Made by a program: the position numbers and the translations under genes
Source: Inquilinus sp. Marseille-Q2685
GTDB taxonomy: Bacteria > Pseudomonadota > Alphaproteobacteria > DSM-16000 > Inquilinaceae
DNA length: 64,000 nt
Reading direction: 5' to 3'
Assembly (NCBI RefSeq): GCF_916619195.1
Contig: NZ_CAKAKL010000002.1
Location: forward strand, 372,001-436,000
The notes under the pieces: model-generated
Databases searched by the model: none
Told to the model about the DNA's origin: nothing
Seen by the model: only the letters and a program-made list of their open reading frames with translations
Shown here: positions 16,254 to 18,298 of the stretch, piece after piece
Numbering within the stretch: position 1 is the first letter of the stretch
How the letters are laid out: every line of letters starts with the position of its first letter

Positions 16254-16285
16254 TAGGTCGGGTTCGCCGAGGCGAACCCGACCTA
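16254..16285. terminator. Perfect 15-bp hairpin between converging genes
   Basis: TAGGTCGGGTTCGCC (16254-16268), a 2-base loop, then the exact complement (16271-16285). The leuS stop codon (16283-16285) lies within the right arm. There is no U-tract, so termination would be factor-dependent. The sequence belongs to the same TAGGT(T/C)GGGTTCGC repeat type as the pair of hairpins at 44241-44317. Confidence 0.65.
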
Positions 16286-18298
16286 GGGACCAGAATCACC
16301 CCCACTCCGTGTCACGAAATTCACCAGCCTTCCCGGCACCGCGACCTCCCGCACCACCTCTCGCCCCTCCAGCAATGCCGCCACCCGCGGATCGGCCCGG
16401 GCCGCGGCGATCAGTTCCCGGGCGTCCAGGCCGGCCGGGCCGCGGATGTGGTGCCTCGTCCGGCCGTCCAGCTGCACCGCATGGTCGCGGCTCTCCTCCG
16501 CGGCCAGCTCCGGGTCGAAGCCGGGCCAGGGGGCGTGGGCCAGGCTGTCCGGATGGCCCAGCTTGCTCCACAGCTCCTCGGCGATGTGCGGGGCGAAGGG
16601 GGCCAGCAGCAGCACGAAATCCTGCACCACCGCGCGCGGCCGCGGGTCGGCCGCCGCCAGCGCCCTGGCCAGCTGCATCAGCCGGGCGATGGCGGTGTTG
16701 CAGCGCAGCGCCTCGATGTCGGCGGTGACCGCCGCGACCGTGGCGTGGCGCAGCCGCAGCAGCGCGGCCATCGGCTCCACCTCCCGCACCGCCGGGCTCA
16801 GCAGGTCATCGGTGCCGCAGACGATCCGCCAGGTCCGGTCCAGGAATCGGCGGATGCCGGCCACCCCGTCGGTCCGCCAGGGCTTCGCCGCCTCCAGCGG
16901 GCCCAGGAACATCTCGTACAGCCGCAGCGCGTCGGCGCCGTGCTCGGCCACCACCGAATCCGGGTTGACTACGTTGAAGCGCGACTTCGACATCTTCTCG
17001 GCCTGCCGCACCAGCGGCACGGACCCGGCATAATAGCCGCCGTCGCGCTCCTCCACCGCCGCCGCCTCGTAGTAGCGGCCGGCGGCGTCGCGGTAGGACG
17101 GCGCCAGGATCATCCCCTGGTTGACCAGCCGCCGGAACGGCTCAGGCGTCGAGACCACGCCGATGTCGAACAGCACCTTGTGCCAGAACCGGGCGTACAG
17201 CAGGTGCAGCACGCCGTGCTCCGCCCCGCCGACATACAGGTCGACCGGCAGCCAGTACCGCTCGGCCTCGCGGCCGACGATCGCGCGGTCGTTGTGCGGG
17301 TCCAGGAAGCGCAGATAGTACCAGCAGCTGCCGGCCCATTGCGGCATGGTATCGGTCTCGCGCCGGGCCGGGATGTCCGTGCCGGGCACGGTGGTCTCGA
17401 CCCAGCCCCTCGCGCGGGCCAGAGGCGGCTCGCCGCCCGGCGCCGGGGCATAGTCGTCCAGCTCCGGCGGCAGCAGCGGCAGGCTGTCTTCCGGCAGCGG
17501 CACCGCCGATCCGTCGGCCAGGTGCAGCATCGGGATCGGCTCGCCCCAGTAGCGCTGGCGCGAGAACAGCCAGTCGCGCAGCCGGTACGTGACCCGGCGC
17601 GTGCCGTCCGGCGCCACCGTCTCCGCCCGGCCGATCCAGTTGCGCTGCAGCGCCTTGATGCCCTCCGGCCAGTCCAGCCCGTCCAGGTCGGCCAGCAGCC
17701 GGTCGGCATAGGCGGTGATGCGCAGCATCCATTGCCGCATCGGCCGCTGCACCACCGGGTCGCCGGTCTCGATGTAGCGGCCGTCCTTCACCTCTTCGTT
17801 CGCCAGCACCGTGTTCTGGGCCGGGCACCAGTTCACGGTGGCCTCGGCCCGGTAGGCCAGGCCGCGCTCGACCAGCTTCAGGAAGATCCACTGCGTCCAG
17901 CGGACAAAGCCGGGATCGGTGGTCGCCAGCTCGCGCTCCCAGTCGTAGGAGAAGCCCAGCCGCTTCACCTGGCGGCGGAAGGTCTCGATGTTGCGCCTTG
18001 TGGTCACCGCCGGGTGGATGCCGGTGCGCATGGCGTAGCGCTCGGCCGGCAGGCCGTAGGCGTCCCAGCCCATCGGGTGCAGCACGTTGAACCCGGCCAT
18101 GCGCTTGTACCGGCAGATGATGTCGGTGGCGGTATAACCCTCCGGGTGGCCGACATGCAGCCCGGCGCCGGAGGGGTAGGGGAACATGTCCAGCGCGTAG
18201 AACTTCGGCTTCCCCGGGTCGATCTCCGCCCGGAAGCTGCGGTGCCGGTCCCAATAATTCTGCCATTTCGGCTCGATCGCCTGCGGATCGTACGCCAT
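16283..18298 (-). CDS. Leucyl-tRNA synthetase paralogue lacking the CP1 editing domain
   Basis: Charges tRNA-Leu by family assignment. Class I motifs are intact: HVGH at 48-51 in YPSGAGLHVGHPEGYTATD and KMSKS at 435-439. The anticodon-binding domain (MQLARALAAADPRP; LLAPFAPHIAEELW) and C-terminal domain are present. At NWIGRAE (220-226) the sequence passes after seven residues straight to RRVTYRLRDWLFSRQRYWG, where normal LeuRS has the roughly 200-residue CP1 editing domain. This explains the length of 671 rather than about 860 residues. The zinc-binding cysteines of the usual ZN1 insert are also absent. The canonical neighbours lptE and holA are missing, so this is probably a second LeuRS. 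AGGAGG precedes ATG 18298. Confidence 0.93.
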   Translation of the reverse strand: MAYDPQAIEPKWQNYWDRHRSFRAEIDPGKPKFYALDMFPYPSGAGLHVGHPEGYTATDIICRYKRMAGFNVLHPMGWDAYGLPAERYAMRTGIHPAVTTRRNIETFRRQVKRLGFSYDWERELATTDPGFVRWTQWIFLKLVERGLAYRAEATVNWCPAQNTVLANEEVKDGRYIETGDPVVQRPMRQWMLRITAYADRLLADLDGLDWPEGIKALQRNWIGRAETVAPDGTRRVTYRLRDWLFSRQRYWGEPIPMLHLADGSAVPLPEDSLPLLPPELDDYAPAPGGEPPLARARGWVETTVPGTDIPARRETDTMPQWAGSCWYYLRFLDPHNDRAIVGREAERYWLPVDLYVGGAEHGVLHLLYARFWHKVLFDIGVVSTPEPFRRLVNQGMILAPSYRDAAGRYYEAAAVEERDGGYYAGSVPLVRQAEKMSKSRFNVVNPDSVVAEHGADALRLYEMFLGPLEAAKPWRTDGVAGIRRFLDRTWRIVCGTDDLLSPAVREVEPMAALLRLRHATVAAVTADIEALRCNTAIARLMQLARALAAADPRPRAVVQDFVLLLAPFAPHIAEELWSKLGHPDSLAHAPWPGFDPELAAEESRDHAVQLDGRTRHHIRGPAGLDARELIAAARADPRVAALLEGREVVREVAVPGRLVNFVTRSGGDSGP

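Follow-up and report, generated by a model that had tools for sequence, protein, structure and literature searches.

Why would a bacterium with a complete leucyl-tRNA synthetase (LeuRS) also maintain a second one that lacks the proofreading domain? The question is raised by a 64,000-nucleotide stretch of the genome of Inquilinus sp. Marseille-Q2685 (contig NZ_CAKAKL010000002.1, positions 372,001 to 436,000; hereafter the window), in which an open reading frame on the minus strand (16283..18298), here termed leuS2, encodes a 671-residue LeuRS without the CP1 editing domain. Reviews report missing synthetase editing chiefly from intracellular or parasitic organisms (PMC11415595; PMC7373986), and in the literature searched we found no account of a bacterium that has a CP1-less LeuRS in addition to a normal one. 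By carrying both a normal LeuRS and a conserved editing-free one, this 7.3-Mb genome amounts to a natural two-enzyme experiment, and such a pair addresses what proofreading is worth, its supply in trans, and domain removal as a route to inhibitor resistance.

A Second LeuRS Without Its Editing Domain

The original prediction for leuS2, made from the letters of the window, had noted that the gene is not beside holA and had proposed a search for a second full-length leuS, on the grounds that a lone copy would be the housekeeping enzyme. A profile search of the genome (7.29 Mb in 18 contigs) recovered a full-length LeuRS of 869 aa on another contig, preceded by a DUF3576 gene and followed by holA. 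LeuS2 is thus an extra enzyme, and the holA neighborhood belongs to the other leuS.

LeuS2 lies well above the curated cut-off of the bacterial LeuRS model TIGR00396 (802.3 vs. 548.4 bits) and covers positions 1-227 and 403-842 of its 843; the model positions in between are unmatched, which indicates that the CP1 part is missing. The spacing from NWIG to LRDW is 20 residues in LeuS2, 193-195 in its rhizobial relatives and that of genome G391, and 203 in the housekeeping LeuRS, so that LeuS2 is shorter than these CP1-bearing enzymes by 173-183 residues, slightly below the deletion of about 200 first claimed. In place of CP1 stand seven residues, TVAPDGT (residues 227-233; 17600..17620), between NWIGRAE and RRVTYRLRDW, and translation and alignment agree with the original prediction on this junction as well as on the HVGH (HIGH) motif at residues 48-51 (18146..18157) and the KMSKS motif at residues 435-439 (16982..16996). 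The catalytic, anticodon-binding (PF08264, residues 513-623; 16430..16762) and C-terminal parts had likewise been called intact, which is borne out by the profile match and by the retention of 117 of the 124 columns conserved at ≥95% among 111 aligned CP1-bearing LeuRS.

All of the positions examined in the alignment that we take, from known LeuRS structures, to form the leucine pocket are retained, among them the conserved His361. The adjoining residue, Gly362 (17213..17215), occupies a site that is Ala in 106 and Thr in 5 of the 111 CP1-bearing rows; it is Ser in the cyanobacterial plasmid LeuRS copies described below. The C-terminal part of LeuS2 fits the bacterial model up to position 842 of 843, unlike the very divergent C-terminus of Sulfolobaceae LeuRS-I. 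LeuRS-I and halobacterial LeuRS2 have lost or reduced aminoacylation, and the CP1 of LeuRS-I is disrupted (PMC9437257), which would suit a non-translational LeuS2 that binds tRNA-Leu or makes leucyl-adenylate as these proteins may; we regard such a role as unlikely.

The missing ZN1 cysteines, to which the original prediction had also drawn attention, are indeed absent, but they are not distinctive, as the housekeeping LeuRS has no cysteines in that stretch either. The two enzymes do differ in that the housekeeping LeuRS has the CxxC motifs CETC and CPSC, which are absent from LeuS2 along with any other CxxC. This difference would fit a zinc-sparing backup that replaces the housekeeping LeuRS under zinc scarcity, like the cyanobacterial threonyl-tRNA synthetase (ThrRS) T2, which Zur represses in Anabaena (PMC4787780). 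We consider this distinctly unlikely: no Zur-like box was found within 500 bp upstream of leuS2 or in eight relatives (best sites with 5-7 mismatches, in a weak test of one motif on one strand), and aligned CP1-bearing alphaproteobacterial relatives also lack these cysteines, so that their absence is an inherited trait and cannot account for the loss of CP1.

The deletion is not a sequencing accident, since two further species of the genus have a syntenic gene of the same architecture whose product is 90% identical. Between the three species LeuS2 is 90% identical and the housekeeping LeuRS 94-96%. Over the three species pairs omega is 0.03-0.05 by YN00, a rough estimate because dS is 0.87-1.30, and 0.26-0.30 by NG86; leuS2 is under purifying selection. 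Decay or an assembly artefact, for which one could cite an unannotated partial relative on the plasmid pTiCA74_95, is extremely improbable, and a decaying copy was rejected given an omega well below 1 and the same intact reading frame in all three species. The GC content of leuS2 (71%; 94% at third codon positions) is similar to that of the window.

Origin and Distribution of leuS2

To place LeuS2 among other LeuRS, as had been suggested with the original prediction, a tree of 119 rows was built on the alignment columns of the window protein by a quick search with SH-aLRT support only, leaving out duplicate loci and loci covering <560 query residues. The three LeuS2 proteins are sister to a CP1-bearing enzyme of Rhizobium anhuiense T24 (SH-aLRT 100), and this group nests in a nine-row alphaproteobacterial clade (100) that is well separated from the housekeeping LeuRS of the window's family. 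This placement rejects leuS2 as a duplicate of the housekeeping leuS. Of the CP1-bearing relatives found, the T24 enzyme, LeuRS2 of the megaplasmid pRA_T24_1, is the closest (73.6% over the core) and differs from LeuS2 in having kept CP1; that domain retains TTRPET and PAHDARD, presumably the editing motifs, which indicates that the ancestor common to the T24 enzyme and LeuS2 probably edited.

The best reading of the sequence comparisons is that leuS2 was probably acquired horizontally, as a single gene, from a sporadic and sometimes plasmid-borne alphaproteobacterial "LeuRS2" pool, given its patchy spread without conserved neighbors and its CP1-bearing sister. In the order, 3 of 17 genomes gave leuS2 matches; these are the window's own genome and two of its five congeners, and the same three gave the whole-query matches in a search of 61 relatives including the window's genome. 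Wider searches scored three candidate places per genome, so that misses are possible. They found matches in seven of 385 genomes of the class, the window's included, at E 1e-105, only the window's being uninterrupted; in one of 398 genomes of a phylum sample at 1e-120, the window's own; and in one of 394 genomes of a family presumed to be Rhizobiaceae (G875), where the match is split into two pieces ~180 residues apart, indicating that this LeuRS has CP1.

A search of plasmids gave 277 matching records at E 1e-5, of which five are 60-80% identical. The four best come from rhizobia, have CP1 and share 67-74% identity over nearly the whole core; the fifth is partial. The neighbors of these plasmid-borne relatives are unlike each other. 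The unannotated partial LeuRS on pTiCA74_95 (L145, 10001-11593) spans query residues 1-357 at 73.6% identity and has tra genes downstream, as does the intact copy on pAtG3_79b.

In five genomes (G391, G404, G116, G105, and G215) a CP1-bearing LeuRS of the LeuS2 type was the only LeuRS found, which indicates that CP1-bearing members of this type can serve the translation of a whole cell. Two of these, G391 (L139) and G404 (L143), belong to one genus, of whose six genomes they alone match the LeuS2 type at E 1e-105, and no other LeuRS was found in either; a transferred LeuRS type has possibly replaced the housekeeping one there.

Repeated Loss of CP1

Eight of the 119 tree rows are without CP1: the three LeuS2, three cyanobacterial plasmid enzymes, that of Mycoplasma mobile and one from a Nomurabacteria metagenome-assembled genome. 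On a 36-row subset of our choosing, at least four changes to the CP1-less state are needed; a single clade of all CP1-less LeuRS is rejected (approximately unbiased test, p-AU 0.0005), as is a clade of LeuS2 with M. mobile (p-AU 1.6e-65), although the place of M. mobile is unsure because of its long branch.

The M. mobile LeuRS (PDB 3ziu) is the best sequence match of LeuS2 among solved structures (591 bits) and resembles it closely, with CP1 missing at near-identical boundaries and a similar short linker. It differs in being the only LeuRS of a parasite, whereas LeuS2 is the second of a much larger genome; its primary description, as cited in reviews, is that of Li et al. from 2011. The plasmid enzymes of Aulosira, Nostoc MS1, and Kovacikia also have CP1 collapsed to a short linker, but they are 42-43% identical to LeuS2, represent a separate loss on the tree, have HVGN rather than HVGH and keep two CxxC motifs. 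They lie at about 12000-13870 of each plasmid record (L123, L124, and L125).

The linkers themselves are alike: AETVAPDGTRRVTY in LeuS2, EEIDGKITY in M. mobile, DEIDGTVQY in Aulosira, and EEKDGVITY and TENPDGTVSY in copies from the Candidate Phyla Radiation (CPR). A D-G or N-G pair, which may form a tight turn, is present in 11 of the 13 CP1-less linkers read, the two without it being from the CPR. That CP1 was lost at least four separate times, with linkers that resemble one another, shows where the domain can be excised without wrecking the core. In the CPR family around the Nomurabacteria genome, 119 genomes were searched and 115 matched; at least six encode a CP1-less LeuRS (L163-L168, in G436, G1187, G1254, G1212, G1183, and G1198), which in G436 is the only LeuRS found.

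A Stand-by LeuRS That Need Not Proofread?

What might such an enzyme do? Our preferred reading, offered tentatively and at a little less than even confidence, is that LeuS2 is an aminoacylation-competent auxiliary LeuRS kept on stand-by, obtained as a single gene, and that its own proofreading is dispensable beside the full-length LeuRS. The gene would have been acquired singly and CP1 then cut out within this genus, the short linker presumably closing the two strands that carried the domain. LeuS2 most likely still charges tRNA-Leu with leucine, to judge from a catalytic core, leucine pocket, and tRNA-binding parts under purifying selection. Even without CP1, a class I synthetase can retain a complete synthetic site and the parts that bind tRNA. 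The housekeeping LeuRS could rebind and hydrolyse norvalyl-tRNA-Leu, and this editing in trans, together with the small threat that norvaline poses in aerobic growth, could have allowed LeuS2 to lose its proofreading. In E. coli with an editing-dead LeuRS, norvaline is reported at 1.65% of leucine sites aerobically, with viability as in the wild type (PMC4932531). The ThrRS pair of Anabaena offers a parallel, an editing-impaired duplicate (T2) beside an accurate enzyme (T1) that supplies editing for it in trans (PMC4787780), although T2 is under Zur control and ThrRS belongs to the class II dimers.

The most likely use of LeuS2 would be as a substitute when the housekeeping LeuRS is disabled, for example by an inhibitor from a neighbor. 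This resistance or stand-by role is put first because inhibitor insensitivity is a known fate of extra synthetases, as with IleRS2 (mupirocin), SerRS2, and TrpRS1 (PMC9437257). The original prediction had likewise suggested resistance to a LeuRS-directed antibiotic, by analogy with agrocin producers, and of that suggestion a resistance or stand-by role stays plausible while the mechanism of AgnB2, the agrocin 84 self-immunity LeuRS (PDB 5ah5), does not fit. AgnB2 is, like LeuS2, a second LeuRS in an alphaproteobacterium; it differs in having an editing site, a KQSKS motif, T42, A102, and Q413, and no LS domain (PMC5059758). LeuS2 matches AgnB2 more weakly than it does the LeuRS of Thermus thermophilus and E. 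coli (428 vs. 571 and about 540 bits). Mapped by motif and by alignment to E. coli LeuRS, the AgnB2 resistance residues T42, A102, Q573, and Q413 correspond to P42, N103, M436, and R241 in LeuS2, so that the four positions examined are in the sensitive state and would predict sensitivity to TM84; the AgnB2 substitutions were rejected as a route to resistance here. No agrocin-type biosynthesis genes were seen among 24 window proteins scanned, a scan in which no agrocin gene served as query; gene prediction gave 46 genes for the window, of which 23 are among these 24, the last being one further open reading frame.

Several points weigh against our preferred reading. By the alignment, the resistance residues of AgnB2 are absent from LeuS2. 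A lack of editing is not free, since the editing-dead E. coli strain becomes less viable when oxygen is low and was outcompeted 6- to 150-fold once stationary cultures were re-aerated (PMC4932531). Gly362, found in none of the 111 CP1-bearing rows, indicates that specificity may have changed and that LeuS2 is perhaps no plain leucine enzyme. Lastly, the CP1-bearing enzymes of the clade function with the domain in place, so that a stand-by role does not by itself account for its loss.

The loss of CP1 may itself have been selected, as deletion of a target domain that gives immunity to a natural molecule trapping tRNA-Leu in the editing site. Benzoxaboroles trap tRNA-Leu in the LeuRS editing site in this way. 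LeuS2 lacks CP1 and keeps most of the rest, the replicon of the CP1-bearing sister is typed as conjugative, and so are two of the cyanobacterial plasmids with a CP1-less LeuRS among the plasmid records examined. We nevertheless doubt this explanation: we know of no natural editing-site inhibitor of LeuRS, benzoxaboroles being synthetic, and the scan of window proteins, made without comparison to a resistance-gene library, turned up no known resistance gene. A broader version, also unlikely but worth stating, is that repeated excision of CP1 acts as an evolutionary switch, converting a mobile LeuRS into an auxiliary that does not proofread and has altered amino-acid use, as the Gly362 of LeuS2 and the Ser of the cyanobacterial plasmid copies might suggest, selected by a natural attacker of the editing site or by the use of a leucine analogue.

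LeuS2 might instead serve regulated mistranslation by deliberately making norvalyl- or otherwise mischarged tRNA-Leu under stress, as Gly362 beside the leucine pocket and the rise of norvaline at Leu codons in E. coli upon loss of editing (PMC4932531) would allow. Mistranslation is usually costly, and the housekeeping LeuRS, which keeps CP1, could clear such products; this use of LeuS2 seems to us quite improbable.

The leuS2 Locus

The surroundings of leuS2 bear on one further proposal, that it supplies Leu-tRNA to a tRNA-dependent natural product. The synthetase-derived SbzA transfers Ile onto altemicidin (PMC9437257), and the O-methyltransferase next to leuS2 (15196..16248, plus strand; Pfam) matches natural-product methyltransferases (FlxJ and daptide methyltransferases) weakly, with scores below cut-off. 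However, the Pfam scan of the 24 window proteins found no gene for a nonribosomal peptide synthetase (NRPS), polyketide synthase (PKS), ribosomally synthesized and post-translationally modified peptide, or peptide ligase, the genes examined around leuS2 and its relatives showed no NRPS, PKS, or similar cluster, and each of the three species has a different insert next to leuS2. This suggestion of the original prediction thus finds no biosynthetic cluster to attach to, and we hold it to be very improbable.

In both congeners with leuS2 (G001 and G003) the gene lies between common flanks, MltA and EamA on one side and LysR and AraC on the other. The insert beside it varies: G001 has a Fic gene and G003 a DUF899 gene, and the O-methyltransferase adjoins leuS2 in this species only; a similar gene sits elsewhere in a third congener, G005. 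In G005 these flanks enclose a low-GC stretch (49%; L159, about 4200-5900) and no leuS2 or recognizable remnant of it; given this insert, the locus is possibly a hot spot for insertions. No second LeuRS was found in the remaining congeners, G002 and G004, both too fragmented for the site to be read; G004 yielded a single, partial LeuRS at a contig end.

Divergent from leuS2 is a gene for a MerR regulator with an ATPase-like domain (18606..19697, plus strand; Pfam), which is syntenic in G001, was not found beside leuS2 in G003 and is present without leuS2 in G005. It is followed by the EamA transporter gene (19669..20637, minus strand), syntenic in G001 and G003. On the other side, a GcvA-type LysR regulator (14225..15106, plus strand) bounds the variable site. 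A conserved partnership with this regulator was considered and rejected, as the Sinorhizobium neighbor is 43% alike and the T24 LysR lies 4.7 kb off and is 30% alike; no GcvA-type neighbor was found in the stretches examined of L121, L122, L139, and L140.

Rfam and tRNA scans of the window returned only a tRNA-Gln. A short repeat at about 20809-20916 of the window has dozens of copies in G002, G004, and G005, mostly 79-96% identical.
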